Shown in pieces: positions 9,891-50,692 of a stretch of 64,000 nt of DNA. Below the pieces are notes generated by a model. It was not told where the DNA came from and ran no database searches. It saw nothing but the letters and a program-made list of their open reading frames with translations. Source of the stretch: Dastarcus helophoroides (taxonomy: Eukaryota > Arthropoda > Insecta > Coleoptera > Bothrideridae); contig CM053335.1 in the NCBI GenBank assembly GCA_028583605.1, forward strand, positions 10,794,053 through 10,858,052, in the 5' to 3' direction. The translations under genes were made by a program, and so were the position numbers. How positions within the stretch are numbered: position 1 is the first letter of the stretch; every line of letters starts with the position of its first letter.

Positions 9891-9898
9891 ACATAAAA

Positions 9899-10246
9899 AA
9901 AGTTGTAGCACTGGACATCGATGTTTCGCTCTCATTTGAGCTCATCAGCAGTGCATAACATAGAAAGAAAACAATGAGGAAATAATATTTAAAAATAAAA
10001 GGTTTTTTTTTATATTTTTGAAATATAAAAATGAAAAATAAAGAAATTTTAACATGAATAGACGTCTTATCATCAATTTAATGTGTTAAAAAATTAAATA
10101 TTGATGATAAAACGTCTATTCATCTAAAAAGTTCTTTATTTTTCTTTTTATATTTTAAAAAAAACCTTTTATTTTTAAATATTTCTTCCTCATTGTTGCC
10201 TTTCCATGTTATGCACTGCTGACGAGATTTGTTAGATTTATGAAAG
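9899..10246. repeat. family B palindrome (foldback element)
   Basis: The left arm (9942-10082) and right arm (10093-10226) are inverted copies around a ~10 nt spacer (GTGTTAAAAA). Matching landmarks are ATGAATAGACGTC at 10054 and GACGTCTATTCAT-like text near 10112, and GCAGTGCATAACAT at 9948 and ATGTTATGCACTGC near 10205. The left arm carries a perfect hammerhead motif on the minus strand. The right arm has a truncated, altered one (CTGACGA, then GAAAGG). Confidence 0.9.
9908..9954 (-). ncRNA. hammerhead ribozyme, family B
   Basis: Read on the minus strand, the order is: stem I 5' arm GCACTG (9954-9949), core CTGATGA (9948-9942), stem II GCTC and GAGC around a 6-nt loop (9941-9928), core GAAA (9927-9924), stem III CATC and GATG with no loop (9923-9916), cleavage triplet GTC ending at 9914, and stem I 3' arm CAGTGC (9913-9908). 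All conserved core positions of the hammerhead family are present and stem I is 6 of 6. GTT and AAC flanks could extend stem I beyond an internal loop, as in type I ribozymes. The loopless stem III is typical of short-stem hammerheads that work best as dimers. Self-cleavage is inferred, not shown. Confidence 0.85.
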
Positions 10247-10249
10247 GAA

Positions 10250-11030
10250 AATTTTGAAATTTTACAAAAATTTAACACTCTGATATTAAAATAGAAATTT
10301 AAACAATAAAAAAAATATAAAATTATTAGAATCCAACTTTAATTTCGAGTTCAAATTCCAAATTATAACCAAACTTAAAGATACACCGAAAAAGTTGAAA
10401 TTTCAAAATTAATAACAAAAAAAAATTGAGGTAAATTGTAGAAAGTGTATCAGTTTTAGGAAAATAATCGAAGTTTTAAAAAAAGCTTATTATATGAACA
10501 AGGGTCAAAAGTATTGAAAAAAAAAGAACTAAAATTATTATAAAAATTGAAAATTGGTTCAATATGTTAAAATTTCAAAATAAAACTTAACTTTTCAAAA
10601 CCAATGTCAAAATAAAATGGGAGAACGTAAAAACTGAAAGGGTGAATTTTGAAAAAGGTCAACAATTTATGAACCATGGCCAAAAGATTTTTTGGAAAGA
10701 ACCAAAATTATTATGAACATTAAAAGTTGTGTCCAGTGTCGAAATTCCACAATAAAACTTGACATTTTAAAACCAATGTTAAAATGAAATTGGATAACGT
10801 AAAAACTGAAAGTGTGAATTTTGAAAAAGTACAACAATTTATGAACAATGGCGAAAAGAATTTTTAAAAAAGAACCAAAATCAGTATAAAAACTGAAAAT
10901 TGTGTTTAATGTCGAAATTTCAAAATAAAACTTCAGATTTTAAGACCAATTTCAAAATGAAATGAGACAACGTAAAAACTGAAAGTGTAAATTTTGAAAA
11001 AGGTCTATACTTTATTTAAGATTTCTTAAC
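10250..11030. repeat. ~170-176 bp tandem A-rich units
   Basis: GTGAATTTTGAAAAAG-like text recurs near 10641, 10817 and 10988, and AAGAACCAAAATNA recurs between. The copies are diverged. No gene. Confidence 0.7.
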
Positions 11031-12730
11031 GCTTTCAGAAAACATCAAAATAATTATAGTAGAAAATATTTGAGTTTAAGTTTAAAATAAAACACTTGAG
11101 TTTGGAATTGGTTCTTGAAATTGAAGGTCGAAACGGATAATGCATAATCCCCCCATCTCCTGATGTGCAGCAACTCTCTTTATCGACCTGATAGCATGAT
11201 AGGCTCTTATCAGGCTCAGGTGTAAAGGAAGGCTGGCTAAAGAGAGTAACGATGGTGGCTAAAAATGTGTTCCAGCACAATTATTTGTATTTCCATACAT
11301 TTGAAACTAATATGAAAAAAATTGTATATTTTTCGTTTTTAAATTTAACGAAATTTTTAAAAATAAATAACAAGACATTCACAAAGTTAATATTCGTTGT
11401 TCAAACAGTCAAAGTATTTACTTTCGAAGTATATTAAACATTTATCGGCCGTTAAGTTATTTATAAAAAATGTGCCAACGGCGGAATTTCCGTTCAATTG
11501 GTTCGACCGGTGTAGGAGAATAAAAGCCTCACCGATACGGTCTTAATATAAATCCTCCATTAGATTTCTCCCTAAGGACAGTGTTCAAGTTTCCTGATCT
11601 GTATAGTTAATTACGTTAATTACTCAACTGCCACTAGTTTTCGGCCGAATAACATTATAAAACTCGAGCTGCGGTGCCCTGTCAGCTAAAAATGAAAAAA
11701 AACATTCCCCCATCCATCTATCATTACCATTCTTAAATCGATCTATCAATAAAATGTTACTGGTTTATTACGTATTTATATAGAATCTTTTCAATTTTTC
11801 TCATTAAAATCGTCCGTAAAAAACGCCAGCAATTATTACTTCATAGACATGGAAAAACTAGACGAGTGCGTACAGATGCTAAAAAGGGCATCGTCCGCTA
11901 AAACAGAAAGAAGCAAAAAAAAAGCATCAGGAATGTTAGATAGGCGAACTAGTCCAGGTGTTTCGCAGGACTGGTAGGGTAGACAAGACAGGTAAGCGGT
12001 GTGCACCCGGCGGGACTCGCGATAGGACGTGCTCGTAGCACGAGCTAACCGCATACCGCCGGTTACGCTGCTATAGCCACCCGTATGAATCCAAGAAGTC
12101 CACGTGCCGGAGTTTAGACCGCTGACACACTGCCCCTTACCTGATACGCTAAGGCGAAGAGGTACCACTTCAATTTGTAACGCTTCACGTTAATAAAGCT
12201 GTGACACGATGGGTTTTTTCATGGAACGGGTGCAATATGAACAACCGCCGGTCTAACATTATTCAGTGACGACTAGCAACCAGTTTATCTAGTCTGATTC
12301 CATCGCACGTTGCAGCATTAAGAACAGATTCTCGAATAATGATATTCAGAGGTGTTCGGTTTCTCGAATAATGAAATTCTAAATTGCTTTCTGTATTACC
12401 ATAATGCGGATTGTACCAAAAATGAACCACATGTGCACAGCTGGTGGGGCATCCACTAAAAACAAGACTAATTTTAGTAGTGTTAATCATACTTCTAAGA
12501 TTAACCAGAGGTTTGGGAGCTTTCATCTTCTGTAGAACAGGTATTCAAATGAAAAAGTAGGTCGTCAGGTATGCTGTGGCTTTTTGTTAGAAGAAGACGT
12601 CGAGAAAAAGGCACACGATTACTTATTGATTGCTTTGTGTGGTCTGACAAGTGTCACTGCCTATTTTTGAAGTTTTCGTGCACAAAGATTTTTGAAACTC
12701 GTTTTTAAAGACAAAAGAAACTCCTCTGAA
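11031..12730. other. ordinary-complexity island with unassigned short frames
   Basis: Base composition is more balanced than in the flanking repeats. Open frames of 81, 110 and 87 codons lie on the minus strand (11035-11280, 11836-12168, 12263-12526). None shows a domain I recognise, and the first is flanked by A-rich DNA. They could be exon fragments, pseudogene pieces or chance. No call is made. Confidence 0.3.
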
Positions 12731-12745
12731 AGGTTAGCTTAGGTT

Positions 12746-12882
12746 AAGTAGCAATAAGCATAAGTATAAGTATGAAGTATAAAGTATAAAGTATAAGTAT
12801 AAAGTATAAAGTATAAAGTATAAGTATAAAGTATAAAGTATAAAGTATAAGTAGTATAAGTATAAGTATAAGTATAAAGTAT

Positions 12883-12934
<52 letters not shown>

Positions 12935-14137
12935 TATAAGTATAAGTATAAAGTATAAGTATAAAGTATAAGTATAAAGTATAAAGTATAAGTATAAAGT
13001 ATAAAGTATAAGTATAAAGTATAAAGTATAAGTATAAAGTATAAGTATAAGTATAAGTATAAGTATAAGTATAAGTATAAGTATAAGTATAAGTATAAGT
13101 AAAGTATAAGTATAAGTATAAGTATAAGATAAAGTATAAGTATAAGTATAAGTATAAGTATAAGTATAAGTATAAGTATAAGTATAAGTATAAGTATAAG
13201 TATAAGTATAAGTATAAGTATAAGTATAAGTATAAGTATAAGTATAAGTATAAGTATAAGTATAAGTATAAGTATAAGTATAAGTATAAGTATAAGTATA
13301 AGTATAAGTATAAGTATAAGTATAAGTATAAGTATAAGTATAAGTATAAGTATAAGTATAAGTATAAGTATAAGTATAAGTATAAGTATAAGTATAAGTA
13401 TAAGTATAAGTATAAGTATATAAGTATAAGTATAAGTATAAGTATAAGTATAAGTATAAGTATAAGTATAAGTATAAGTATAAGTATAAGTATAAGTATA
13501 AGTATAAGTATAAGTATAAGTATAAGTATAAGTATAAGTATAAGTATAAGTATAAGTATAAGTATAAGTATAAGTATAAGTATAAGTATAAGTATAAGTA
13601 TAAGTATAAGTATAAGTATAAGTATAAGTATAAGTATAAGTATAAGTATAAGTATAAGTATAAGTATAAGTATAAGTATAAGTATAAGTATAAGTATAAG
13701 AAGTTGAAGTTGAAGTTGAAGTTGAAGTTGAAGTAGAAGTAGAAGTAGAAGTTGAAGTTGAAGTAGAAGTAGAAGTAGAAGTAGAAGTAGAAGTTGAAGT
13801 AGAAGTAGAAGTAGAAGTAGAAGTAGAAGTAGAAGTATAAGCATAAGTGTAGGTACAAGTACAAGTATAAGCATAAGTAAAGGTACAAGTACAAGTATAA
13901 GGATAGGTACAAGTACAAATTCAAGTGTAGGTACGAGTACACGTACAAGTATAAGTATAGGTACAAGTACAAGTACAAGTACAAGTACAAGTACAAGTAC
14001 AAGTACAAGTACAAGTACAAGTACAAGTACAAGTACAAGTACAAGTACAAGTACAAGTACAAGTACAAGTACAAGTACAAGTACAAGTACAAGTACAAGT
14101 ACAAGTACAAGTACAAGTACAAGTACAAGTACAAGTA
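12746..14137. repeat. composite hexanucleotide microsatellite (~1.4 kb)
   Basis: The order is: mixed AGTATA and AGTATAA (7-mer) units (12760-13130); pure AGTATA (to about 13700); GAAGTT and GAAGTA hexamers (13700-13835); mixed units with AGCATA, AGTGTA and AGGTAC variants (to about 13965); and pure AGTACA (to 14135). AAGTAGCAATAA lies at both ends (12748 and 14133). The very long low-complexity minus-strand frames here are not proteins. Confidence 0.97.
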
Positions 14138-14139
14138 GC

Positions 14140-14436
14140 AATAAAATGGAAATTTAATCCAACATAACAAAATAAGTCTCCAGCATAAATTTTAAACAAA
14201 AGTAATTTAACAATCACTACTCTTATAGTCTTCTCTTTACCTGCTATTCTTACGCAGGACAATTGAACTATGTTGCTATTTATCTAAATATTATTTCTGA
14301 AAAAAACAAAAATACCAGTAAAATAATAAAATTATGGAAGGATATTCTTCTTGTAAAATTTGTTTTTGAACTGTCTTGTGCAAAGTGCTGCGAAAAGTGC
14401 CTCTAGAAAGTGCTTTCATTAATTCATAGTTTGTAT
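14140..14436. other. ordinary AT-rich sequence
   Basis: No gene or repeat recognised between the microsatellite and a family A arm. Confidence 0.4.
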
Positions 14437-14566
14437 TCAGAGATGATAGCTTGGCTGCCGAAACGCGTTAGAGCAACCTTTGTTGTGTTTTAGTCTTTCT
14501 TGGTTTCAGGGGACAAGATTTGTGTTTCAATTTTTGAAGATAACCAAGGACCAGTCCGTTCCACCA
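14437..14566 (+). repeat. single family A right arm
   Basis: One half of the foldback: GATGATAGCTTGG, GAAACGCGTTAGAGC, TTTCAGGGGACAAG and the terminal GACCAGTCCGTTCCACC. Stem II has decayed (GCTGCC instead of GCTATC). The 5' part of the ribozyme core (CTGAAGA) is cut to CAGAGA. Confidence 0.75.
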
Positions 14567-15836
14567 CATAGTTTTTAGTCAACTGGAGAAAACATGGTTT
14601 TTTCTTATTTTTTTCTCAAATTTCGATTTAAATTCCTAATTTTAACTTTTACCTTGACTTAAACTTTGTATCAGAACGTTTGGACATTGAATATTCTTTC
14701 AAATTTTGAAAAATTCCCACCAGCGTTCAACTCTTTTTTTTTCTAACTAGTTACAACTTCACGTCGTAGATTTTTCTTTTAGGAAATCTTGAAATTTCAA
14801 TTTTTTTACACTTTTATTTAAATTTGCAGTGTTGAAATGCATTTGATTGTTCAGAATTTCGAAATAAAGTTTTTGGTATAAAGTTATTCATCTTTTTTTT
14901 GGGTTCAACTTTAATCACAAAATTTTGGAAATTTTAAATTTAAATTAGATTTACTGTTAAACTCGGAGTACCTCTATATTTTTTAATTATTTCACAAAAT
15001 GCAGAGTTTAAAATTTTGGCTTTTATTTTAAATCTACTGATTTTTGTTTTAAATGTCGACTCTTTCTAGAAACATGCAAGCTGAGCGGAAATGTTTGTGA
15101 AAAATGCTGTGTATCAAAATTTTGAATTTAATTTTGGATTTTTTGAATTTTGAATCTTAATTCGAAATGTTCAGAACAGTTTACATTTATAGTGGACAAA
15201 GTTGTTTTACAAAACCTCTAATTACGAAGGACCTTGAATTGAAAAAAAAAACCGAATTTATTAATAAACATTTCTCACATTATCAATTTTTTTTTAAATT
15301 TTATTAACTTTAGAAACTTCCGAACAAAGAATAGAATAGGTTAATTCGTAACCTTCCAGTTCGAACCCAAAATATTCAATTCTTTAAATTTGAAATACTA
15401 GAAATAAATTGATCTTTTTAGAATCACTATCTAGAGCTTGAGAAAAGAGAAGCTGTAATTTCTGGGAAAAAAGTTTTGAAAGTAAAATGACAAAAAACAC
15501 GAAAAATTATAAAAATTGCAAGGTTTGAACTTCGAATTTTAGAACAAGAATCTCTAAATTTTGAAAAGATCAAAGCTAGTAACAAAAATTATCAAAATTC
15601 AACATTTTCTTCTAAAGCAAAATTTAGAAAAACTTTGATATTTCTTCAAACCTGTGCTGTTTTCTAAAAAATTTTTAGTTTAAACTCTAGATGCAAATAG
15701 AATACAACTTAGACTGCAACTTCATGCAGCCCTCCAGGCGTGTATAGTGAATCATAGGTAGCTGAACTACCAACAGTTGAAACACTGCTACCTAGCAAAG
15801 TGGTTGCTCTCTAGGAAAGTTCCCAGAAGACAAGGA
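14567..15836. repeat. degenerate low-complexity sequence with a dispersed repeat at its right part
   Basis: No gene. About 15,530-15,700 (ATCTCTAAATTTTGAAAAGA and following text) has a clear relative at 31,560-31,740, after the LINE, so this is a dispersed repeat. 15,710-15,836 is ordinary sequence. Confidence 0.55.
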
Positions 15837-15889
15837 TTCTAATGCACAGATCAATAGGTTTGAACATTTATTTGAGTCGAAGTTTGGAA

Positions 15890-15932
15890 ACCAAAGACCG
15901 GTTTCGATCTTGTTAGATCTCGTCAGTTTGGT
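15890..15932 (-). ncRNA. hammerhead ribozyme, family C copy 1
   Basis: Minus strand: stem I ACCAAA (15932-15927), core CTGACGA (15926-15920), stem II GATCT and AGATC with AACA loop (15919-15906), core GAAA (15905-15902), stem III CC and GG without a loop (15901-15898), triplet GTC ending at 15896, stem I TTTGGT (15895-15890). All stems pair perfectly. Outer TTGG and CCAA could extend stem I past an internal loop. The core agrees with the CUGANGA and GAAA consensus. Confidence 0.82.
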
Positions 15933-16606
15933 ATATCCAATTCGAATCGATTCGAGTTAATATTTTTGAAAATCACAATTTTTTTGTTCAAAATTGGTCT
16001 CTTTTACTGAACTTCGATCTTTTATTCGAAACTTCTATTTTTTTTTTCAAAATTTGTTTTTGGAAATTTGGAATTTTTTTGAAAATAGTTTATTTTTGAA
16101 AGTTCAACATTTTTCTCAAAATTTTGGAAATTTCTACAAATCTCAACTTTTTTTGAAAGTTCGTTTTTTTTCCCAAAATTTTAATTTTTTTGCTTTAAAA
16201 TTCGTCTTTTTCATAGACAACTATTCTCAAAATTTCACAATTTTTTCAAATTTAACTTTCTGTGGGAAATTTCTGTTGTTTTCTTGAAGTTTTGTCTGTT
16301 TTCTCAAAATACGTCTTTTTCAAGATTTTCGACTCGTTTTATTCGTTCTCAAATTTCCATTTTATTCAAAAATTCGAGTTTTTCTTAAAATCGACTTTTT
16401 TGGAAGACTTCGACGTCAACTGTCGAAATTTCGACTGTTTTTTTCGAAATGTCACCTTGTCTTCGAAATTCCGTTATTTTTGGTTCATTTTTCTTAAAAT
16501 TGTGATATGTTGCCTAGAAATGTTCAGAAATTTTGACTAAATTCTTGAATTCTATCTAATGCATAGAAAAATAGGTTTGAACATTTATTAAATTCGAAGT
16601 TTGGAA

Positions 16607-16649
16607 ACCAAAGACCGGTTTCGATATTGTCAGATCTCGTCAGTTTGGT
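16607..16649 (-). ncRNA. hammerhead ribozyme, family C copy 2
   Basis: Same layout as copy 1 and in the same orientation. The core boxes, stem I, stem III and GTC triplet are intact, with one mismatch in stem II (GATCT against ATATC). Its predicted cleavage site (after 16613 on the minus strand) is 717 nt from that of copy 1, so two cuts would release a unit-length RNA. Confidence 0.75.
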
Positions 16650-17342
16650 ATATCCAACTCAAAGCTACACGATTTAGATATACTAAGTAGTTATTATTTT
16701 TGGAAATCACGATTTTTTTTTCAAAATTGGTCTCTTTTATTAAACTTTCGATTTTTTACTAAAACTTCTATTTTTTTTTCAAAATTTGTTTTTGGAAATT
16801 TGGATTTTTTTGAAAATAGTTTTTTTCTTGAAACTTCAACATTTTTCTTAAAATTTTCGAAATTTCCACAAATCTCAACTTTTTTGAAAGTTCGTTTTTT
16901 TCCCCAAAATTTTGATTTTTTTACTTCAAAATTTGTTTACTTTCATAGACAACTATTCTCAAAATTTCACAATTTTTTTTAAATTTAACTTTCTGTGGAA
17001 AATTTCTGTTGTTTTCTTGAAGTTTTGTCTGTTTGCTCAAAATACGTCTTTTTTCAAGATTTTCGACTCGTTTTATTCGTTCTCAAATTTCCATTTTATT
17101 CAAAAATTGGACTTTTTCTTAAAATCGACTTTCTTTGGAAAACTTCGACGTACAACCGTCGAAATTTCGACTGTTTTTCTCGAAATGTCACCTTGTTTTC
17201 GAAATTCCGTTATTTTTTGTTCATTTTTCTTAAAATTGTGATATGTTGTCTAGAAATGTTCAGAAATTTTGACTAAATTCTTGAATTCTATCTAATGCTC
17301 AGAAACATAGGTTTGAACATTTATTAGATTCGAAGTTTGGAA

Positions 17343-17384
17343 ACCAAATATCGGCTTCGATCTTGTTAGATCTCGTCAGTTTGA
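17343..17384 (-). ncRNA. decayed hammerhead, family C copy 3
   Basis: CTGACGA and stem II are intact, but the second core box reads GAAG, stem III is altered and the cleavage triplet is changed. Probably inactive. It lies 736 nt beyond copy 2. Confidence 0.6.
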
Positions 17385-17472
17385 TAAATGAATGCTAACA
17401 AATCTTTCGACAAGTTCGGTGATTCTTTAGTACTTACTTGTCGGAACATTTGTTAGCATTCGAGTTGGATAT

Positions 17473-17515
17473 ACCAAACTGACGAGATCTAACAAGATTG
17501 AAACCGGTCTTTGGT
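17473..17515 (+). ncRNA. hammerhead ribozyme, family C inverted copy 4
   Basis: Plus strand: ACCAAA (17473-17478), CTGACGA (17479-17485), stem II GATCT and AGATT with an AACA loop (a G-U wobble closes it), GAAA (17500-17503), CCGG, TC ending at 17509, TTTGGT (17510-17515). It is opposite in orientation to copies 1-3, so either transcript of the locus contains at least one intact motif. Confidence 0.78.
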
Positions 17516-17550
17516 TTCCAAATTTCGAATCTAATAAATGTTCAAACCTA

Positions 17551-18463
17551 TTAGTCTCTGAATTAGAGCACTAAAGTTTTAATGTCTAAAGAGGAAAGTC
17601 GAAATATTTTGAAGAAGATTATTGAACCAATACCAATGTGAAGATTGTAAAAGAAAAAACTAAATTTATTAAACAATTTGTTTTCAAAATTTCGACTTTA
17701 ATGTAGGGATTTTAAACTCGAAAAGTAAAAATGTCAAAAATTTTCTCAAAATGAGTTTAAGGTCAAAATATCGTGATTAAAAGTAAAAAAATTGCCAATT
17801 AAAGTTAAAATTTGGTAACTAAGACAAACAATTTAGTAGTTAATTTAAAACGTCAATCTTTTTCCGAAGTTGGAAGTCAAAATTCTGACAAACAAGTCGA
17901 ATTTTCGGAATCAAAATCGAAATATGAAAAAATCAACTTTACAATAAAAAATGTTGACGTTTTTTTATTGTAAGGTTAAAATTTTACCAAAAAAATCAGA
18001 ATATTTAAATGAACTGGGAGAGTTATTAAAAAAATCTTAAATTTTCTAGTTTAGAAATGCTCAAATTTTGTGTAAAACTCGAGATTTATAAAAAAAAACC
18101 TACATTTTAGACGAAATTTGTTAAAGAAATTTTTAGAAAAATTTTTTTTAAAGAATATCTTTTCAAAATTATGACTTTATAAGCGATTTCCAATTTCTAG
18201 TCAAGAGTCAACATTTTTAGTCTAATACCGAATTCAAACTTTGAATTTTTATAGATTTACAGTTTTTATTTTTATTTGGATTTTTTCTCAAAGTACAGGG
18301 TTTAAGCCCTTAAAACAGCAAACGTTGACATTGTTTTTATAAAATTTAAAACGCAAGATCGAAACTTTGACTAAAAAAGGAGAAATCTCAAGAAAAGTTT
18401 AAATTATTTTTAAAAAATTCTCTAAAATTGAAGCCTTAACTTTGAAATGTTTTGGTGAAATGA
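17551..18463. repeat. degenerate low-complexity sequence, no gene
   Basis: A- and T-run sequence with words such as AAAATTTCGACTTTA. No boundary, unit or coding frame is recognised. Confidence 0.5.
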
Positions 18464-18895
18464 ACTGGACCTTGGTTATATTCAAAAATTGAAATACAAA
18501 TGCTGTCCCCTGAAACTAAGAAAGGTTAAAAAATACAAAAATATTGTTGTAACGCGTTTCGATAGCCGAGCTATCATCTTCAGAGAGATATTCATACTAC
18601 CTCTTTGAAGATGGCTATTGAAATGCGTAAGAGCAATATTTGTTCTGTATTTTAATTTTTTTGGTTTCAGGGGACAAGATTTCACAAACTGAAATACAAA
18701 TCTTGTCCCCTGAAAAAAAGAAATTTAAAAACACAACAGTTATTGCTGTAACACGTTTCGATAGCCAAGCTATCATCTTCAGAGAGATCTTATAGTATAT
18801 CTCTGAAGATGGGCTATCGAAACGCGTTAGATCAACATTTGCTGTGTTTTTTACCCTTTCTTGATGTCAGGGGACAATATTTGTATTTCAGTTCG
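18464..18895. repeat. two adjacent family A palindromes
   Basis: The first palindrome starts at GAACTGGACCTTGGTTAT and the second near 18,690. Both have inverted GTTTCGATAGC and GCTATCGAAAC segments. The left arms (about 18,555-18,600 and 18,757-18,790) keep GAAA, GATAGC, GCTATC and CTGAAGA on the minus strand. The right arms lost part of stem II. Stem I partners have decayed. Confidence 0.75.
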
Positions 18896-21800
18896 TGAAA
18901 TGTTGGATTTTTTCTTGAATTTTTAACTTTAAATACATAGTTTCTACTTCTAGAAAGTTTTCAACGAAATTTCAGATTTAAAAGTTAAAATTTTGAGAAA
19001 AACATTAGAATATTTAAGTTTAAAGCAAACATTTCAATGTTTTTGGTAACGATTCGAGAATCAGCACGAAACTTTAAGGATTTCTTTTTTTAGAAATATA
19101 CTTCTTCTGAATATTCTGAGTATAACTTAAAATTTAGTTTTTTTTTGAAATTTCGAGTGAAAACCTTGACACGATTTCTCCCAAACTTAATCGCAAACTT
19201 TTGGCTTTTTTCGCAATATTTTGAGTCTAGGCTGATAATTTTGGTCAATTTCAAGATTAACATTTTACTTTATTCTTCAAATTTTAAAAATTGAAATACA
19301 AATCTTGTCCCCTGAAACCAAGAAAGATTAAAAAACACAACAACGCTCCCTCTCCAGTCGTCTTGTTCTGCTGAAATTGGGTAAATTCAGGGAAGGTCAT
19401 TAAATTTGTAGTTGGGAATAAACTAGTGTTGAAATATACTTCTTCTGAATATTCTGAGTATAACCTAAAATTTAGTTTTTTTTTTGAAATTTCGAGTTAA
19501 AACCTTGACACGATTTCTCGCAAACTTTTGAATTTTTTCGCAATATTTTGAGTCTAAGTTTGTAAATTTGGCCAATTTCAAGATTAACGTTTAATTTATT
19601 TATCAAATTTTAAAAATTGATATACAGTAATACCCCGTTTAACGCGGGGATTACGTTCCAACCAAGTAGAGCGTTTTACGAAACAGCGTTAAACGAGGTC
19701 ATCTCATTATGTAAATAATGGGGTTAGGGGAAAACCGGTATAAAAAGTACAACAAATTTTGCTGTGATGCGTTTCGATAGCCGAACTATCATCATGGGCT
19801 ATCGAAACGCATTAGAGCAACATTTGTTGTTTTTTACCCTTTCCTGGTTCCAGGGGACAGTTCAGTTCGTGAAATGTTGGATTTTTTCTAGAATTTTTGA
19901 CTTTTAATACATATTTTTTACTTCTAGAAAGTTTCCAACGAAATTTCAGATTTAAAAGTTAAAATTTTGAGAGAAACATTAGAATATTTAAGTTTAAAGT
20001 AAACGTTTCAATTTTTGATAACGATTTGTGAATCAGCGCGAAACTTTAGGGATTTCTTCATTTGGAAATATACTTCTTCTGAATATCCTGAGTATAACCT
20101 AAAACTAAATTATTTTTCGAAACTTCGAATAAAAACCTTGACACGATTTCTCGCAAACTTTTGAATTTTTTCGCAATATTTTGAGTCTAAGTTTGTAAAT
20201 TTGGCCAATTTCAAGATAAACGTTTAATTTATTCATCAAATTTTAAAAATTGAAATACAGCAATACCCCGTTTAACGCGGGGATTACGTTCCAACGAAGT
20301 AGATGGTTATACGAAACAGCGTTAAACGAGGTCATCTCCTTATATAAATAATAGGGTTAGGGGAAAACGGTTATAAAAAGTACAACAAATATTGCTGTAA
20401 GGCGTTTCGATAGCCGAGCTATCATCTTCAGAGGGATACTCATAGTAACTCTCTGAAAATGCCGATCGAAACTTGTTAGAGCAATATTTGTTCTGTTTTT
20501 TAACCTTCCTTGGTTTCAGGGTATAAGATTTCACGAACTGAAATACAAATCTTGTTCCTTGAAAGAAAGAAAGTTTAAAAAACACAATAAATATTGCTGT
20601 AACTGCGTTTCGATAGCCGAGCTATCATCATGGGCTATCGAAACGCATTAGAGCAACTTAGGTTGTTTTTTACCCTTTCTTGGTTTCAGGGGACAGTTTA
20701 GTTCGTAAAATAATGGATTTTTTCTAGAATTTTTGACGCTTAATACATAGTTTTTACTTCTAGAAAGTTTCCAATGAAATTTTAGATTTAAAAGTTAAAA
20801 TTTCGAGAAAAATATTAGAATATTTAAGTTTAAAGAAAACATTACAATGTTTTTGGTAACAATTCAAGAATCAGCACGAAACTTTAAGGATTTCTTCATT
20901 TGGAAATTTATTTCTTCTGAATATCCCGAGTATAACCTAAAATTTAATTTTTTTTCGAAATTTCGCATAAAAACCTTGACACGATTTCTCGCAAACTTTT
21001 GAATTTTTCGCAATATTTTGAGTCTAAGTTTGTAAATTTGGCCAATTTCAAGATTAACGTTTTACTTTGTTAATCAAATTTTAAAAATTGAAATACAGTA
21101 ATACCCCGTTTAACGCGGGGATTACGTTCCAACCAAGTAGAGGGTTATACGAAACAGCGTTAAACGAGGTTATCTCCTTATGTAAATAATAGGGTTAGGG
21201 GAAAACGGGTATAAAAAGTACAACAAATATTGCTGTAACGCGTTTCGATAGCCGAGCTATCATCTTCAGAGAGATACTCATAGTATCTCTCTGAAGATGG
21301 CTATCGAAACGTGTTAGAGCAATATTTGTTTGGTTTTTTAAACCTTTCTTGGTTTCAGGGTATAAGATTTTATGAACTGAAATACAAATCTTGTCCCCTG
21401 AAAGAAAGAAAGGTTAAAAACACAATAAATATTGCTGTAACGCGTTTCGATAGCCAAGCTATCATCTTCAGAGGGATACTTATAGTATCTCTCTGAAGAT
21501 GTTTTTTAATCATACTTGGTTCAGGGTATAAGATTTCACGAAATGAAATACAATACAAATCTTGTCCCCTGAAAGAAAGAAAGGTTAAAAAACACAATAA
21601 ATATTGCTGTGATGCGTTTCGATAGCCGAGCTATCATCATGGGCTATCGAAACGCATTAGAGCAACATTTGTTGTTTTTTACCCTTTCCTGGTTTCAGGG
21701 GACAGTTTAATTCGTGAAATGTTAAATTTTTTCTAGAATTTTCGACTTTTAATACATAGCTTTTACTTCTAGAAAGTTTCCAATGAAATTTTCGATTTAA

Positions 21801-22250
21801 AAATTAAAATTTCGAGAAAAACATTAGAATATTTAAGTTTAAAGTTAACATTTCAATGTTTTTGGTAACAATTTGAGAATCAGAGCGAAACTTTAAGGAT
21901 TTCTTCATTTGGAAATCTACTTCTTCTAAATATCCCGAGTAATAACCTAAAATTTAATTTTTTTTCGAAATTTCGAATAAAAATCTTGACACGATTTCTC
22001 GCAAAACTTTTGAATTTTGTCGCAATATTTTGAGTTTAAGTTTGTAAATTTGGCCAATTTCAAGATTAACGTTTAATTTATTTATCAAATTTTAAAAATT
22101 GAAATACAGTAATACCCCGTTTAACGCGGGGATTACATTTCAACCAAGTAGAGCGTTATACGAAACAGCGTTAAACGAGGTCATCTCCTTATGTAAATAA
22201 TGGGGTTAGGGGAAAACGGGTATAAAAAGTAAGTTACCATTTCTATTTAG
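18893..22250 (+). repeat. tandem array of ~0.83-1.0 kb chimeric units
   Basis: TTCGTGAAATGTTGGATTTT-like starts occur at about 18,888, 19,870, 20,703 (diverged) and 21,712. Each unit contains AATACCCCGTTTAACGCGGG (19,629; 20,261; 21,101; 22,113), which is the end of a pogo-like element. In the first three this is followed by CAACAAATATTGCTGT-like text and family A palindromes (about 19,760-19,865, 20,390-20,695, 21,225-21,705). The unit is thus a fusion of A-rich repeat, a deleted pogo-like element and family A, amplified in tandem. Confidence 0.85.
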
Positions 22251-22843
22251 ATCATTCGTATTCTGCTCTTCCAATTTTTTTATTTTTTTTTATCAAGAAG
22301 GTGCCTAGTGTCATTTGTAATTTTCTTTTGCGCCCTATAAGAAGTTGGCACCCCGTCTTGCCTTTGAACTCCTATCAAATTCTGCCACATTTTTAATAAA
22401 TTGTTTCTTAATTTCTGTAGCTAAACTGGTTTTTAGGAATGACCTTGACAGTTTATTTTTTTGCTTTATTTTAGAATCACTTTTTTTAATATTTTTGTGT
22501 TCTTCTTGATCCACTATTTCCTTGAGCTCAGCATTAATTTATTTTTTGAAATCTTCCCCATTCCTAAACGTGTTTGATTCGCTAATTCGACTATTTCATT
22601 CATATCAACAGATTTTCTACTATCATCGTCCTCGTTTAGATCTTACCAAACGTTTTTCCACACTCCTTTGAAACATTTTTTTATTACCTCATTTAAAAAA
22701 AATTTATAATGTATGTTGTAGGTACTTTGAATTTAGAGGAAACCTAATGATGCGTGCAATTTTCAGGGAATCCCATTTTTCCAATAAAGAAGCTTTAAAC
22801 CGAAACAGCGCTAAACAGAGCATCGTTAAGCGGGGTTTCACTG
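22107..22843 (-). mobile_element. pogo/Tigger-like non-autonomous DNA element
   Basis: The element begins CAGTAATACCCCGTTTAACG and its other end, read inverted, begins CAGTGAAACCCCGCTTAACG. It is flanked by TA on both sides (22105-22106 and 22844-22845). CAGT ends and TA duplication fit the pogo branch of Tc1/mariner. The sequence it interrupts is a family A arm: ATTGAAA, TA, then CATATCTTGTCCCCTG matches intact arms. The interior holds a short coding fossil. It is 737 bp, far shorter than an autonomous element. Confidence 0.72.
22490..22680 (-). pseudogene. fossil of pogo/Tigger-like transposase C-terminal part
   Basis: Translating the minus strand from about 22,680 gives FKGVWKNVW, a stop, then DLNEDDDSRKSVDMNEIVEL and ANQTRLGMG. 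After a one-base shift it continues EDFKK, a stop, and INAELKEIVDQEEHKN. The WKNVW, acidic linker and VELANQT-like layout is what I expect of the C-terminal tail of pogo/Tigger transposases, after the DDD domain. Two stops and one frameshift show it is dead. The family assignment rests on the short match plus the CAGT ends and TA sites, so it is moderate. Confidence 0.5.
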
Positions 22844-23165
22844 TACATATCTTGTCCCCTGAAACCAAGAAAGATTAAAAAACACAACAAAGGTTGCTCT
22901 CTAGTCGTCTTGTTCTGCTGAAATTGGGTAAATTCCGGGAAGGTCATTAAATTTGTAGTTGGGAATAAACTAGTGTTTGAAATGGTCAACAAATGTTTTT
23001 CTTGTTAATTGTGGTTTTTAACCCTTTAGTGCCTTTTCTAAGAGTATTTTATCTCTTTAATGCCTTTTTTAGATGTTCGTTTTTACCTAATTTAATATTT
23101 TACTCTCCTTTTTACCTTATTTGATTGTAAAAATTGACCAAGGACCAATCGGTTCCACCAAAATT
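22844..23165. repeat. family A remnants after the pogo-like insertion
   Basis: CTTGTCCCCTGAAACCAAG and ACACAACAAAGGTTGCTCT continue the interrupted arm. Then comes a segment (CTAGTCGTCTTGTTCTGCTG onward) that also occurs at 19,350-19,435. A terminal ACCAAGGACCAATCGGTTCC lies near 23,136-23,156. Confidence 0.65.
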
Positions 23166-24620: not shown

Positions 24621-24623
24621 GTT

Positions 24624-28963: not shown

Positions 28964-28964
28964 C

Positions 28965-29465: not shown

Positions 29466-31515
29466 AATTCTAGCAGCGAACAAAACTTTCCGTCGTATAG
29501 AAGGAAGGGAACCACTGCCAAATTACTTGGTGGAGCTGATTAGAACGAAAAATCGTGCCAGGACGAGAGCAAGACGGACCAATCTGCAAGCAGATAAGGC
29601 GGAAGTCAACAGCCTCATCCACGAGCTCTGGTATGAGCTCCGAGAGCACAAAATTTCTAAGCTTCAGGAACACTTAAGAAGTTGCAACCTCGAAACTCCA
29701 TCAGATCTCTGGCGCACAGCCAAAGCTCTAAGAAGAGATAGGAAACCTATCCCACCGATACACGAACCTCAAGGAATGGCTTACTCAGATCAGGATAAGG
29801 CCACAGCTTTCGCTGAGAGCTTTGAACGACACTGTCAAGCCACACTTGAAGAAGTGTACTTAGACTTCGTATAGGAAGTGGAAAAAGAGGTTCAAGTTCT
29901 TTAGAAGGAAGTGCCAGAAGAAGAGGACGTTATCCAACCGACTAACGAGAAGAAAATCCAAAGCTTTCTGCGCAAGCTAAACGTCAAAAAGTCTACAGGT
30001 CCAAACAGAATTCCAAACCAAGCTCTGAAGTCTCTTTCGGAGCAAGGTGTCAAATACTTTGAAGCAATAGTCAATCCATGTTTAAGTACCAATATTTTCC
30101 CAAAAGATGGAAGACTGCAAACGTTATCTTCATTCCTAAGCTAGATAAGGACTGGAAATTTTCCCAAAATTACAGGACAATCAGTCTCCTATCCAACTTG
30201 GGTAAGGTGGCGAAAAGAATTTTGACAAAGCGTGTGCAGAACATCATCAGCGATCGCGACATCATTCCTAAGGAACAATTTGGGTTCCAACCTATGCTCT
30301 CTACCTCAGACAAGCTGCCGAGAGTGGTTGAAACAATCACTCAACGCATGAACTGGAACCAGGTAGTTATCTTTGTTATCTCCAAGGCATTTGACACAGT
30401 TTGGCACTAAAGACTAGTCTACAGGATGCACCAGTTTAAAATACCTCTAACAATGGTTCAAATGGTAAGCTCGTTTCTGGTCCAGCGCTCATTCAGAGCA
30501 AAGGTGGGACAGGAACTATCAAACCAGTTTAGGCTACAGTATGGGGTGCCTCAAGGCTTTGCCTTGTCACCTCTGCTGTTTTCTCTGTTCACAGCAGACA
30601 TCCCGAGAATCAATCCAACAAGCGACCACACATTATTGGCAACTTATGCAGACGGCACAGCTTTGGTGGCGTACTCTTACAGTCCAGAGTTGGTCACCAG
30701 GGGACTTCAGGAGGCAACAGACAGTCTACTAGATTACTTCGGTCAATGGAGAATCCAAGTCAACGGAGACAAGACCCAAGCAGTCTTTTTCACCCGAAGA
30801 AGACTCCAACCATATGGACATGTAAATGTTCATGGGCAAAACGTCGACTGGAGACTTCAAGCAAAGTATCTAGGTGTAATTCTTGATAAAACACTTACAT
30901 TCCTCAAACACATCGATTATGAAGTGTCCAAAGCCAAAATGCTGAAGGGACTGCTGCTGATTGGTAGGAATAGTAACCTGTCCATTGGACTTAAAGCGTT
31001 ACTATACAAATCAATTATAAGACCAGCGATGACCTACGCATCTGCAGCTTGATCACAGGCGATGGATAATCAGATGAAGAAACTCCAGGTGTTCCAGAAC
31101 GTCTTTCTAAGACAAGCCATGGACGCTCCATGGTTTGTGAGAAACAATCAACTCCATAGGAAAGCTGAACTACCTTTGGTAAGAGATTTTCTTAGGGAAA
31201 TTAATTCCAGGGCTATGGTGAGAGCGGAAACGCATCCCAACGAACTAGTTCGACAGGCAGTGGATTACGATTCAAACGTCCCACCAGGATTGGGAGACCA
31301 AGGATGGTCCTCTAGGGTACCACTTCCATTTCGGAAATTTTTGTTTTGTTTTTTTCTTATATTTCAGGCAAAACAGCTTACAATAGTGCACTATTGTACT
31401 GTTCCGACGGAAGGATTGGGGGCCAAGGAAGAAGTAGGGGTTTTTAGTCGGTACCCATAGCTTGAGTGGAAGTTCGACACTATCTGGGTATCTTCCCAGA
31501 TGTCCTTAACAGATT
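29466..31515 (+). pseudogene. 5'-truncated, dead jockey-clade LINE (reverse transcriptase ORF2)
   Basis: The fragment encodes the linker and reverse transcriptase of a non-LTR retrotransposon. Seen in order: YLVELIRTKNRARTR and SDLWRTAKALRRDRKPIPP (29,520-29,760), KSTGPNRIPNQALK (29,990-30,030), ISLLSNLGKVAKRIL and EQFGFQP (30,180-30,290), SKAFDTVWH (to 30,407), YGVPQGFALSPLLF (30,540), YADGTAL (30,648), KYLGVILD, and a C-terminal NELVRQAVDYD-like end (31,240). The endonuclease domain is absent, as in 5'-truncated copies. Damage: a stop near 29,872, a frameshift near 30,100, stops at 30,408 and 31,050, the first catalytic Asp missing (FVISKAFD), and YADD changed to YADG. The 3' end, with GGTACCCATAG and CACTATCTGGGTATCTTCCC, looks like a jockey-type 3' UTR. 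No poly-A tail is obvious. Confidence 0.85.
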
Positions 31516-43243: not shown

Positions 43244-43440
43244 ATAATAATGTAATTAATTCATAATTTGGTAATTTTCAAGTCAGGAATCTACATTAAT
43301 AAAACTGATGTGTCTGTATGTCTGTCGACTGATCTTTTGTCCGGGCTAATCTTTGAAATTGCTAAATCGATTTTAATAAAAGTTTTACTAAAATGTAGAG
43401 CGTTTTAAGAGATACCTTTTAAACAATTTTTTGTTATTCA
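43244..43440. other. possible terminal fragment of a dispersed element
   Basis: TCTACATTAATAAAACTGAT and TGTCTGTATGTCTGTCG, followed by a CTAAATCGATTTTAATAAA stretch, resemble the start regions of common insect repeats (Helitron-like starts often begin with TC and carry similar motifs). I see no matching 3' hairpin and CTRR end, so this is only a suggestion. Confidence 0.2.
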
Positions 43441-43705
43441 GGGAATTACTAAAGTACAACAGATAATTACTGAAAGTGTGCAATTTTTGCCCTACCACAC
43501 GAGGCTTCTTTAGAAATGCAAATGGATTGAAACGTTAATTATTTATTGACAGCATGTCAATTAACAATTAGAATAGGGCAAAACTTTTTTGAACTCCTGG
43601 GATCATCAGCATTTTATAGAAATTTAAAATCTTCTTTCACAGGTTATATAAACTTATCTTACAAATTAAGAAAATGTCGGTTAAGATGGAAAAATTTCTA
43701 GTATG

Positions 43706-43958
43706 AGTTCAAAAATTGAAATACAAACCTTGTCTTTTAAAACCAAGAAAGATTAAAAAACACAACAGAGGTTGCTCTAATGCGTTTCGATAGCAAAGCT
43801 ATCATTTTCAGAGATATACTCTCTGCATCTCTCTGAAGATGATAGCTTGGCTATCGAAACGCGTTAGAGCAACCTCTGTTGTGTTTTTTAATCTTTCTTG
43901 GTTTCAGGGAACAAGATTTGTATTTTAATTTTTAAAGATAACCAAGGACCACCAAAAT
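43706..43958. repeat. most complete family A foldback element
   Basis: A ~250 bp palindrome with arms of about 110 bp around a short centre (ATATACTCTCTGCATC). The left arm runs from CAAAAATTGAAATACAAACC to TCATTTTCAGAG. The right arm runs from CTGAAGATGATAGC to ATTTTTAAAGATAACC. It ends at ACCAAGGACCACCAAAAT. It has no coding capacity and carries ribozyme-like cores in both arms. Confidence 0.88.
43829..43869 (+). ncRNA. hammerhead-like motif, family A right arm
   Basis: Order on plus: stem I CTCT (43829-43832), core CTGAAGA (43833-43839), one extra T (43840), stem II GATAGC and GCTATC with TTG loop (43841-43855), core GAAA (43856-43859), stem III CG and CG without a loop, T and T (43864-43865) as the NUH site, and stem I AGAG (43866-43869). 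The only deviation is the extra nucleotide between the CUGANGA box and stem II. An extra nucleotide there is known in a natural viroid hammerhead. Stem I is only 4 bp as seen. Activity is unproven. Confidence 0.6.
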
Positions 43959-44425
43959 TAGGAGTTCAAAATTTTAAAAATTACATTTTTTGGAAATATG
44001 AAAGGTTATCCATTTAGATGGAAAGTTCATGTTCCCTTCGTGGCATGAATTATGCGATATTTTACATATTTTATGTTTTAACAACGATCTAAACCATCGA
44101 CGTTTTCTGATGAATAATAATACTTCTATTTCTTAGACTTTCCCTTTAAAAGAAGTCGGGAATTACTAAAGTACAACAGATAATTACTGAAAGTGTGCAA
44201 TTTTTGCCCTACCACACGAGGCTTCTTTAGAAATGCAAATGGATTGAAACGTTAATTATTTATTGACAGCATGTCAATTAACAATTTGAATAGGGCAAAA
44301 CTTTTTTGAACTCCTGGGATCATCAGCATTTTATAAAAATTTGAAATCTTCTTTCACAGGTGATATAAATTCATCTTGCAAGTTAAAAAAATGTCGGTTA
44401 AGATGGAAAAATTTCTAGTATGAGT

Positions 44426-44582
44426 TCAAAAATTGAAATACAAATCCTGTCCCCTGACACCAAATAAGATTAAAAAACACAACAACAGCTGTTCTAACGA
44501 GTTTCGACAGCCAAGCTATGATCTTCGGAGAGATACTGCATCAATTTTTGAAGATAAGCAAGGGCCAGTCCCTTCCACCAAA
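44426..44582. repeat. internally deleted family A element
   Basis: The left arm with GTTTCGACAGCCAAGC and ATCTTCGGAGAGATAC is present. Most of the right arm is deleted and only the outer end, GGGCCAGTCCCTTCCACC, remains. Confidence 0.75.
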
Positions 44583-46959: not shown

Positions 46960-46967
46960 CTACTGCC
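46960..46967. repeat. 8-bp target site duplication, left
   Basis: CTACTGCC directly precedes the CAGTGGCGGCT end. The identical octamer follows the other end at 51,657-51,664. Confidence 0.88.
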
Positions 46968-48490
46968 CAGTGGCGGCTGGCGTATAGGCACTGTGGAACT
47001 GCAGGACCCCCAATTTCGCTTACGAGTTTTTTTCTCCAAATTTTCTGACCCCTTTTCAATACATAATTTTTGTAGAAATTTTCTGATTTCTTTTTATAGA
47101 AATTTTAGGTTTCTTTTACGAAGTAACGACATTTAAAAACCTATTTTATTTTTAAATTTGATCAAAATCACATTTTCAAAAACTAATTTTTGTGAAATTT
47201 TTGTGGAAAAAACCAATATTTCGAGCAGGAATTAAAATGTCAGGAAAAAAACTCAAATTTCCTTGAAAATGTCAACATTTTGAGAAAATATTTACAATTT
47301 CAAGAAAAAATCTAAACTCATCTCGCATTTTACTATTTTTCTAAAAAATAAGTTACTACGATTTCTTCGAATTTTTACCTTAAATCTCATTTTGAATAAA
47401 AATTTTAAGTTTTTTCAGATATTTCGATTTTTTAGGAAATTTTATTTTTTTCTGCAGTTTCCATTTTTCCTAAATATTTTATAAAACGAAATTTTCGCTT
47501 TTCCTAAAAGTGTTGTACTTAAAATTTCGTTTAGAAATTCCAACTTCTCCAGAATTTCCTTTGTTCCTCTAATTTGCCTTAAAAATATCAAGTTTTTTTT
47601 ACGATACTTTGACATTTTTAAGTTCATTTTATTTTGTAGTTTTGACAAAAAATGTTTGGAAAAAACCCTGAAAGCTCTATAAAAATTTCAACATTTTGGG
47701 GAAAAAATTTTGCTTTTTTTAAGAAATTTGTGTTTTTCTCTAAATATTTTATACAAAGAATATTTTTTTTAATTTAGAATTTTCCTGAAGATTTTGTCTT
47801 TAGAATATTTTTTCTTGTAGAAATTTCGATTTCTCTCTAATTTGTTTGGGAAATTTAAAAGTTTTTTACCGAAATTTTAATATTTTAAAATTCATTTTAT
47901 TTTATAATTTTGATAAGAATTTAAAAATTATTAAGTATAAATTTAGGGACAATAAACTTCAAAACTGCATTAAAATAAGAATACTTTGGGAAAAATATTG
48001 AAATTTCAAGGAATAATGAACCTTCTAAATTTCAACCTTTTTTACAATTTGATATTTCTCTAAAAAATTACTAATACTGTAGGACAAAAGAAAATTCTGA
48101 ATCTGAATTTTCAATTTTTCTACAAATGTTAAACTTATTCTTGAAATTCTCGAGTTCGAATTTAAAATTCAAATTTCGATAAAAAAAGACATCGAAATTT
48201 AAAGATTAAACTAAAAATTTCAAAAGAAAGCAGATCATATTTCTAGACCAAGTTCTTATTGTAAACAACATTTTTCAAAAAAAATAACATTATCGGACCA
48301 AAGAAAAAACATTTTTTTTTTGAAATAAATTAATTGTCAAAAATATTCTTATAATTTCGACTTTTAAACTGGGAATTATCGAAATTTTTTAAAAAAAGAG
48401 TCAGCATTTCTCGAAGGGTCTCAAAATTTCGAAATTAAAATTAAGCAAAATGTTGAAACCAGAGACTCTGGTTGAAACCATATTTTTTTT

Positions 48491-48562
48491 TAGAGCAACC
48501 TTTGTTGTGTTTTCAATCTGTCTTGGTTTCAGGGGAACAGTTTTTGTATTTCAATTTTTAAA
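48491..48562 (+). repeat. family A right-arm fragment inside the hAT-like element
   Basis: TAGAGCAACCTTTGTTGTGT and CTTGGTTTCAGGGGAACAG match the outer part of family A arms. The ribozyme part is absent. Confidence 0.75.
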
Positions 48563-49189
48563 AGGTTGAAAAAAATTCATTAACAATTTACTGTTCTAAT
48601 TTAATTTTTTTCTAGTAATTTTCAAGTTCCAGAGAAATTTCAAAATTCAAATAATTCAGGTTGAAGCCAATTTTTTGTGAATAAAATTCAAATTTTGGCA
48701 ATTTATTTCTAAATAAAGCGCAAGTTTTTTTGGAAATTTGTTTTAAAACTTGGCACAATTTTAAAAATAGAAAATTTTGTTATTATTTTTTTTTAATTCG
48801 AGTGTTATTTCGAAATTTTTCTCAAAAAATGTAAATTTAAAAAGAAAAACAGTACCACTTTTAAAAAACAATCGGAAAAGTCGAATCTAAAAAAAAAAGC
48901 AATTCCTAAAAAATTTTGAAATTTTCATAGAAAGTTAAATTTTCAAAAGAAAATAAGGATTTCGAAAAAAATTTTAAATTCTAAAATGGTCGACATTTTC
49001 AATAATTTTGGGAATGTGAATAAAAGACGAATTTTTGGAAAAATATCGACATTTAAGTAGTTGCAGAGTTTTTATTTAAATTTTCAAAGAAGCTGAATTT
49101 TTTAAATATTGGAAAAACTCAAAATTATCGAAAATTTCGTATTATCAAAAAAGGTAAAATTTAAAAAAAAGTCGCGATTTTCAATAGTT

Positions 49190-50100
49190 CAAGTTAAAGA
49201 ATCTTTTCTTTTAAGTCGAAGATTTAATTGGAAATGTTTAAAAAAATGTAAATAAAAATTTAAAAAAAGTTCGAGTTATTTAAAAAAAAAAGTCAAGTTT
49301 TCAAAAAGAGTCGAAATTTTGAAAAAAGTCGAAATTTTCCGCAGTTAAAGTTTAAAAAGAATCTTTTCTTTTAAGTGGTAGATTTAATTAAAAATGTTTC
49401 AAAAAATGAATAATTAAAATTTTAAAAAAAGTTTAAACTTTTAAAAAAACAAGTTTTCAAAAGGAGTCAAAATTTTGAAACAAGTTGAAATGTTCCGCAG
49501 TTCAAGTTTAAAAAGAATCTTTTCTTTTAAGTCGTAGATTTATATGAAAATATTTTAAAAAATGTATAATTAAAAATTATAAAAAAGTTTGAGCTTTTTA
49601 AAAAAAATGTCAAGTTTTCAAATAGAGTCGAAATTTTGAAAAAAGTCGAAATTTTCCGCAGTTAAAGTTTAAAAAAGAATCTTTTCTTTTAAGTCGTCGA
49701 TTTAATTGAAAATGTTCAAAAAAATGTATAATCAAAATTCCAAAAAAAGTTCGAACTTTAAAAAAAAAGCAAGTTTTCAAAAAGAGTCGAAATTTTCCGC
49801 AGTTCAAGTTTAAAAAAAATCTTTTCTTTTAAGTCGTAGATTTAATTGGAAATGTTTAAAAAAATGTATAATTAAAATTTTAAAAAAAGTTCGAACTTTT
49901 AAAAAAAGCAAGTTTTCAAAAAGAGTCGAAATTTTTCGCAGTTCAAGTTAAAAAAAAATCTTTTCTTTTAAGTCGTAGATTTAATTGGAAATGTTTAAAA
50001 AAATGTATAATTAAAATTTTAAAAAAAGTTCGAACTTTAAAAAAAACAAGTTTTCAAAAAGAGTCGAAATTTTGAAAAAAAAGAAATTCGAAGTTTTAAA
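49190..50100. repeat. tandem array of ~140-160 bp units inside the hAT-like element
   Basis: ATCTTTTCTTTTAAGT recurs at about 49,202; 49,358; 49,518; 49,680; 49,820; 49,958. It alternates with GAGTCGAAATTTT and CCGCAGTTCAAG segments. Six copies, no gene. Confidence 0.85.
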
Positions 50101-50580
50101 ATGGAGTCGAAATTTTACGAAAGGTTTCAAGAAATGTCTGACTTAAAAAAAAATCGCAATTTTTAAATAAAGGATCGACAGTTTGCAAGAAATGTCAAAA
50201 TTTTGAAAATAGTTGAAATTAAAAAAGGAGTCAACATTTTTGTTTTCTAAAAATTTTAAATTTTGGAAAATGACTAAAATTTTGAACAATTCGATAATTT
50301 GAAAAAGGCCGAAATTTTCAACAAAGTGGGAATTAAAATAAAAAGTCGAAAATTTCAGAATAGTGCGGATTTAAGAAAAGGTAAAATTTTTAATAAAGAT
50401 AGTCGAAATTTGTTGACAAGGGAAAACATTTCAAGATCTTTCAAATTTCCAAAAGTCAAAATTTTGCAAAAGAAGAAATTTTCTAAAAGAAAAGCTCGAA
50501 ATTTGATAGTCGAAATTAAAAAAATATCAAAATTTGCAAAAGATTTGAGAATTTTTATCGAATTTACGAAATAATTCGAA

Positions 50581-50692
50581 AATTAAAACACAGAACTTGT
50601 CCCCTGAAACCAAGAAAAATTAAAAAACACAACAAAGGTTGCTCTAACGCGTTTCGACAGCCAAGCTGTCATCTTCAGAGAGAAACTACAAA
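50581..50692 (-). repeat. family A left arm inside the hAT-like element
   Basis: The left arm reads CTTGTCCCCTGAAACCAAG, ACACAACAAAGGTTGCTCT, and then the ribozyme-like core on the minus strand. It breaks off after the core. Confidence 0.78.
50642..50682 (-). ncRNA. hammerhead-like motif, family A, covarying copy
   Basis: Minus strand: CTCT, CTGAAGA, extra T, stem II GACAGC and GCTGTC with TTG loop, GAAA, CGCG, TT, AGAG. Compared with the copy at 43,829, the T in the first stem II strand has become C and its partner A has become G, which keeps the pair. This compensatory change supports a selected RNA fold, or descent from an ancestor under such selection. Confidence 0.62.

Follow-up and report, generated by a model that had tools for sequence, protein, structure and literature searches.

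Three palindromic repeat families, here termed A, B, and C, carry hammerhead ribozyme motifs in a 64,000-nt stretch of the Dastarcus helophoroides genome (the window, taken at its full length). What are these repeats, and how did the opposite orientation of their motifs arise? The initial annotation described non-autonomous repeats, possibly built from inverted terminal repeats of Penelope-type elements; its observation is confirmed in part, and its interpretation is partly supported. We find that family A is the hammerhead-bearing pseudo-long terminal repeat (pLTR) of a Penelope-like element with a reverse transcriptase and a GIY-YIG endonuclease. The full reading, in which A is such a pLTR, B and C belong to the non-autonomous, retrozyme-type repeats, and the inverted layout is a fold-back by-product, is very likely correct.

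A strict scan of the window (core CTGANGA with 0–1 inserted base, stem II of at least 3 bp, GAA, stem III of at least 2 bp with A first and T last, NUH, and stem I of at least 4 bp) returned six complete motifs: two in A (43833(+) and 50646(-)), one in B (9914(-)), and three in C (17479(+), 16613(-), and 15896(-)). The same scan returned a mean of 0.01 motifs and a maximum of 1 in 100 dinucleotide-shuffled windows, which upholds the claim that three unrelated families carry type I hammerheads at the annotated places. In addition, a family A query matched nothing at the B or C places of the window. A relaxed scan was noisier, with matches in 11 of 20 shuffles, and its extra matches are mostly degenerate relatives; the six strict motifs score 24–30 (the weakest C motif, 26), compared with 22 for the best shuffle.

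Rfam models return nothing in the window at the gathering score. In a relaxed run at E ≤ 10, HH9 (gathering score 52) matches B with 42.5 bits (E 1.6e-7), C with 32.0 and 31.3 bits (E 4.2e-4 and 6.8e-4), and a broken C copy with 19 bits (E 6), and no Rfam hammerhead model matches A. By the HH9 E-values, with scores below gathering, B and C contain canonical type I hammerheads, and the covariance-model check proposed in the initial annotation is thus significant for these two families and not for A. The predicted cleavage triplet is GUC in B and C, and GUU in A. The A hammerhead has an additional U following A9 (of the 37 genomic copies counted, 35 have U and 2 have C here); extra bases after this position occur in other hammerheads, as well.

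Family A is linked to a Penelope-like element. A genome search for GIY-YIG yielded at least 91 matches (150 of 1070 candidates scored), and 30 loci were examined. Eighteen loci (family 1) have one 3′ untranslated region (UTR) and ten have another; L009 has neither, and L028 has only A copies. Sixteen of the 18 family-1 loci (all except L019 and L023) have a same-strand A copy downstream, at a distance of 253–329 bp from the GIY-YIG match in 15 loci and 673 bp in one. A stop-free 393-aa frame in L054 contains both RVT_1 (E 4.2e-7) and GIY-YIG (E 8.4e-6). Relatives of this frame in other insects have both domains, and its best named matches are from insects, the first being the longhorn beetle Molorchus minor (57%). 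Strict hammerheads are present in A copies of 9 of the 30 loci (7 of them family 1) and, in five loci (L017, L018, L026, L032, and L037), in the direct downstream copy. Upstream, 5 of the 18 family-1 loci carry an inverted A. Eleven of 16 direct copies carry the 3′ tail of A, which 5 of 6 inverted segments lack. The search for a Penelope reverse transcriptase with a matching terminal repeat has therefore succeeded for A, and the proposed origin from inverted terminal repeats of Penelope-type elements stands for this family; no autonomous partner was found for B or C. In the window, a Pfam scan of 122 of the 316 stop-to-stop frames of at least 50 aa gave no GIY-YIG among its matches.

Hammerheads in Penelope elements were reportedly described by Cervera and De la Pena in 2014. 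Penelope-like elements with a GIY-YIG endonuclease and hammerhead-bearing pLTRs are described in PMC11167929, and a Penelope with an inverted pLTR, an optional tail, head-to-head pLTRs, and palindromic junctions in PMC3846280. A resembles these elements in having reverse transcriptase and GIY-YIG in one frame, a hammerhead in the terminal repeat, an inverted upstream pLTR, an optional 3′ tail, and head-to-head junctions.

A second GIY-YIG Penelope family (L044-L051, L055) has a distinct 3′ UTR. On the endonuclease strand, this UTR (e.g., L049 ~5030-5075) contains a stretch shaped like a hammerhead, comprising an altered core (CTTGAAAAT), a stem GCCAG/CTGGC, GAAA, and the palindrome ATACGTAT, alike in most copies shown. 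Judging from its sequence, it may be a decayed or variant ribozyme.

The A repeat is abundant. Exact matches to a 28-mer that begins at the predicted cleavage site number 6,859 in the 539-Mb genome, compared with none for the reversed control. Of 100 listed places, we sampled 60, all within 2.7 Mb of the start of contig C1; the sample skips a few close neighbours, and 59 of the 60 have no masked letters. An inverted A 11-mer lies within 110 nt upstream of 43 of the 59 copies, compared with 81 of 2000 random window stretches, and a direct 11-mer neighbour accompanies 5 of the 59, compared with 91 of 2000. A separate alignment, made with no background control, found both arms in 44 of the 59, one of which (L058) is probably spurious. 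In 33 of these 44 pairs the spacing between the arms is -6 to +7 nt, and 32 pairs have one or both arms extending to unit position ≤23. Among the 31 A segments of the window, 11 neighbour relations are head-to-head, 4 tail-to-tail, and 2 direct. Thousands of A pLTR copies are thus scattered in the genome, and most sampled ribozymes are damaged.

Family C has a unit of ~375 bp: L118 and L119 share ~370 bp, and L119 contains a partial tandem with a 379-bp period. Exact genomic copies of a 23-mer located just 5′ of the motif number 3,426 (control, 0). Neighbours within 600 bp among 100 listed places are head-to-head in 10 cases, tail-to-tail in 0, and direct in 8, with ~1 expected in all; 6 of the 8 direct neighbours are spaced 366–381 bp. 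Head-to-head C also occurs in the window, L051, and L117 (7 C places examined). On contig C1 (5274088-5274863), three consecutive C 23-mers are spaced by 377 and 376 bp. The T-rich body that the initial annotation included in family C is a separate dispersed repeat, whose other genomic copies stop at the C boundary (40 of 3112 candidates scored); with this 600-bp body set aside, C as a 717-bp tandem element was rejected.

Family B is rarer, with 33 exact genomic copies of a 33-mer of its hammerhead. The B unit of the window continues to 9624, beyond the start at 9899 given initially. The unit is ~680–745 bp long, and two units stand in tandem, 675–690 bp apart, in one of 8 B loci (L001).

In PMC7229834, animal retrozymes have units of 170–400 nt and coexist with Penelope. 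B and C resemble these non-LTR retrozymes in their type I hammerheads, AT-rich sequence, tandem units, and the presence of Penelope alongside; they differ in their head-to-head copies and in the short palindromic stem III, which is like that of amphibian motifs. The C unit falls within the published range, and C appears to fit animal retrozymes in size and tandem layout. The B unit exceeds this range, and B is therefore called retrozyme-like only. B also resembles the repeat hammerheads of Aedes aegypti (PMC3088659) as an insect repeat with a palindromic stem III/loop III that could form a 10-bp dimer stem; the inverted layout is unmentioned in the parts of that paper covered, which include two inactive motifs from Aedes and Nematostella. 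The pDo500 satellite of Dolichopoda cave crickets is an insect satellite with a hammerhead, as well.

Could B and C instead be Penelope pLTRs or derivatives, like A, with their autonomous partners missed? All three families combine a type I hammerhead and a palindromic stem III with head-to-head partners in some copies, and at least two GIY-YIG Penelope families are present in the genome. In L031, a B-like copy and a GIY-YIG match are separated by 1.2 kb; in L045, L050, and L051, C copies lie 2–4 kb downstream of such a match. However, these three loci have no further sequence in common between the Penelope end and C, and the 3′ UTR of the second Penelope family is its own. Among the places listed, the closest of 33 B places is 31 kb away from any of the 91 GIY-YIG places, and the closest of 40 C places 150 kb away. 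We therefore consider a Penelope origin of all three families unlikely.

Stem III is palindromic in all three families (ACGCGT in A, ACCGGT in C, and ACATCGATGT in B), so that full pairing is possible between two motifs. In a single motif, it could comprise one pair and a CGCG or CCGG tetraloop in A and C, respectively, and three pairs and UCGA in B; the stem described initially as loopless is thus a palindrome of 1–3 pairs capped by a tetraloop when alone. Nearest-neighbour fold energies, which include no concentration term, favor the dimer in every family, at -21.7 kcal/mol for the dimer versus -2.2 kcal/mol for two monomers in A, -37.1 versus -20.8 in B, and -23.3 versus -3.0 in C. The folds suggest that the short palindromic stem III would favor dimer action in B and C. 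Amphibian hammerheads with a similar short, tetraloop-capped palindromic stem III act as dimers (PMC7229834), and the palindromic stem/loop III of Aedes gives a 10-bp dimer stem (PMC3088659).

Inverted partners are unable to dimerise within one transcript, because one partner is antisense. Transcripts through the palindromes are predicted to form hairpins (-149 to -159 kcal/mol) with the motif base-paired to its complement. With the partner antisense and the motif buried in a predicted hairpin, the inverted layout is unlikely to serve cleavage. The arms do hold the motif in opposite orientation, as annotated, and C has one intact motif per strand; the A and B exemplars have one intact arm each. 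In the left arm of the A exemplar the core is CTGAAAA, the match of the B right arm ends after CTGACGAG, and the C copy at 17291-17389(-) has GAAG plus a broken palindrome. The statement that a transcript of either strand contains a motif thus holds for orientation only, one exemplar arm usually being broken and a hairpin being predicted.

We propose the following mechanism. Tandem B and C copies would be transcribed, two hammerheads would pair through the stem III palindrome and then cut, and the resulting RNA would be reverse transcribed into target sites. The new complementary DNA (cDNA) of a sense RNA would end at or near the 5′ end of the unit, where its 3′ end could snap back and prime its own second strand. 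The product (antisense, loop, sense) would then be a head-to-head palindrome whose arms differ in length, one of them being truncated. Such self-primed fold-back in reverse transcription best explains the head-to-head palindromes, and fits A and C. Palindromes at head-to-head Penelope junctions are read as self-priming in PMC3846280, with an antisense template preferred. Our data do not separate sense- from antisense-template self-priming. In long interspersed nuclear elements (LINEs), 5′ inversions arise by twin-priming. That process fits less well here, because the inverted arm and the direct arm are both copied from one stretch of the unit.

A slightly less probable alternative than the Penelope origin of all families is that the repeats are ordinary satellite or hairpin DNA, inverted by later recombination between copies and not by reverse transcription. 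Arrays are present (18466..22900), and some A neighbours are tail-to-tail or direct. However, recombination should yield both inverted kinds, and the excess of head-to-head over tail-to-tail C neighbours and of inverted over direct neighbours in sampled A copies counts against it, as does the close abutment of most A arm pairs. It is very improbable that the palindromes are DNA-transposon fold-back elements (with long inverted terminal repeats) carrying hammerhead-like sequences unused: they resemble such elements and most sampled motifs are degenerate, but A sits at a near-fixed position behind a reverse transcriptase–endonuclease frame, the arms are truncated at many positions, and B and C occur in tandem units.

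Several results weigh against the combination of a Penelope pLTR, retrozyme-type repeats, and fold-back. A direct A copy both upstream and downstream was seen in 0 of the 9 family-1 loci examined; in this, as in its thousands of short copies and the extra base after A9, A is unlike described Penelope elements. Among the 100 listed A places, 28-mer neighbours within 600 bp are head-to-head in 4 cases, tail-to-tail in 1, and direct in 5 (1.7 expected), a weaker head-to-head bias than in the 11-mer test. Only 8 of the 60 sampled A copies pass all structural hammerhead tests in a fixed register. Covariation in 15 window copies of A is not above shuffles, and one stem II pair, scored in 37 of the 60 genomic copies, varies (CG 19, UA 9, UG 6, CA 2, and UU 1), which two subfamilies could explain; covariation is weak in A. 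The predicted cleavage site is no clear preferred 5′ end: 5 of the 60 copies, one of them masked, start within 0–2 nt of it. Truncation at the cleavage site in window copies 48490 and 22844 was dropped as a sign of in vivo cleavage, because starts are spread over the unit in the 60 copies and because 48490 and L016 are a single insertion. For B, the unit exceeds published animal retrozymes, and a head-to-head partner is present in 3 of the 9 copies examined (window, L005, and L007), indicating that the B palindrome is not constitutive. For C, a DNA search covering part of the unit found head-to-head copies in 1 of 40 places.

The initial annotation knew of no description of several families with an inverted layout. 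The locus is less new than that: PMC7229834 describes 16 hammerhead families in one coral genome, and PMC3846280 describes inverted pLTRs. In the literature searched, the components (Penelope hammerheads, retrozymes beside Penelope, multi-family genomes, and head-to-head pLTRs) are already described separately, and the palindromes are a rich example of known repeat kinds, not a new kind. A literature search covering titles, abstracts, and passages, with Cervera and De la Pena (2014) and Lunse (2017) outside it, found no report of head-to-head retrozymes. A head-to-head bias common to a Penelope pLTR and a retrozyme-like family is an open lead.

Given the overlapping head-to-head fold-backs in A, C, and some B copies of the same genome, we tentatively suggest that the Penelope machinery might mobilise retrozymes in trans, which is possible rather than probable. 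If so, self-primed second-strand synthesis from snapped-back cDNA would be a shared, frequent outcome, and fold-back marks would point to the enzyme that copies animal retrozymes. How Penelope elements are copied, what the hammerhead does, and which enzyme mobilises retrozymes are open questions in PMC11167929, PMC7229834, and PMC7761336. This genome offers a Penelope family with thousands of short pLTRs and two retrozyme-like families, several with fold-back junctions. It thus provides many natural end points for probing self-priming, and Penelope and retrozyme insertion signatures that are directly comparable.

Table 1 Features of families A, B, and C in the window.
Feature	Position	Strand	Detection
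A hammerhead, intact: CTGAAGA, extra U, 6-bp stem II, GAAA, ACGCGT, U17, 4-bp stem I	43829..43869	+	strict scan
A arm opposite the preceding motif, core broken	43711..43814	-	
A hammerhead, intact, stem II GACAGC/GCTGTC	50642..50682	-	strict scan
A solo unit of ~112 bp, between 14-bp direct repeats GAAATAATTCGAAA (50568-50581, 50694-50707)	50582..50693	-	
A composite with 380-bp direct repeats (43441-43820, 44158-44537), both terminating where an A copy has its 5′ end	43441..44537	-	
A segment cluster; aligned copies 3746, 3912, 4893, and 5396 with broken cores	3746..5477	.	
Tandem array including A palindromes; stem I broken (ACAG/ACAA) in the six minus copies that were aligned	18466..22900	.	
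A solo copy with long 3′ tail	14441..14565	+	
A copy lacking the portion before the predicted cleavage site; shares flanks with L016 (same insertion)	48490..48562	+	
B hammerhead: CTGATGA, 4-bp stem II, GAAA, ACATCGATGT, C17, 6-bp stem I	9908..9954	-	HH9, strict scan
B unit, 5′-truncated, running 10102 to 9624; matches L004 1361-1831	9624..10102	-	
B fold-back arm, an inverted copy of the initial part of its own unit, ending CTGACGAG	10100..10226	+	
C hammerhead, intact: stem II GATCT/AGATC, ACCGGT, C17, 6-bp stem I	15890..15932	-	HH9, strict scan
C hammerhead, stem II weakened	16607..16649	-	strict and relaxed scans
C hammerhead, inverted, G-U at stem II base	17473..17515	+	HH9, strict scan
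C head-to-head palindrome: arms 17291-17411(-) and 17440-17567(+); minus motif broken	17291..17567	.	
T-rich bodies (15948-16554, 16664-17290) flanking the middle C copy; separate dispersed repeat	15948..17290	.	

The 14-bp repeats around the solo A unit are a probable target site duplication; a flanking match of this length was reached by 23 of 2000 random intervals. The 8-bp flank match of the A copy with the long tail is at chance (362 of 2000 random intervals), as are the flank matches of B and C, and the target-site evidence is thin overall. Within the tandem array of A palindromes, a DNA-transposon-like stretch with ends CAGTGAAACCCCGC or alike is seemingly inserted.

Other features of the window include a long inverted repeat at 53740-56384, with arms of 182, 170, 146, 121 bp and more that are 90–96% complementary, a spacer of ~0.9 kb, and outer ends (53720 and 56406) that nearly match over 16 bp. 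Units of 6 bp form two arrays, both longer than 1 kb, at 7546-8605 and 12754-14137. Exact-pattern scans of viral contigs gave 0 matches in each of two scans. A broken non-LTR (LINE-type) reverse transcriptase with RVT_1 in two frames is present at 29467-31460, and piggyBac-type transposase fragments with DDE_Tnp_1_7 in three overlapping frames at 61375-62890. The best named matches of one window frame are from Neodiprion and Psylliodes. A frame at 59044-60949 has a weak zf-AD match and hundreds of relatives, and is probably a mobile element gene.

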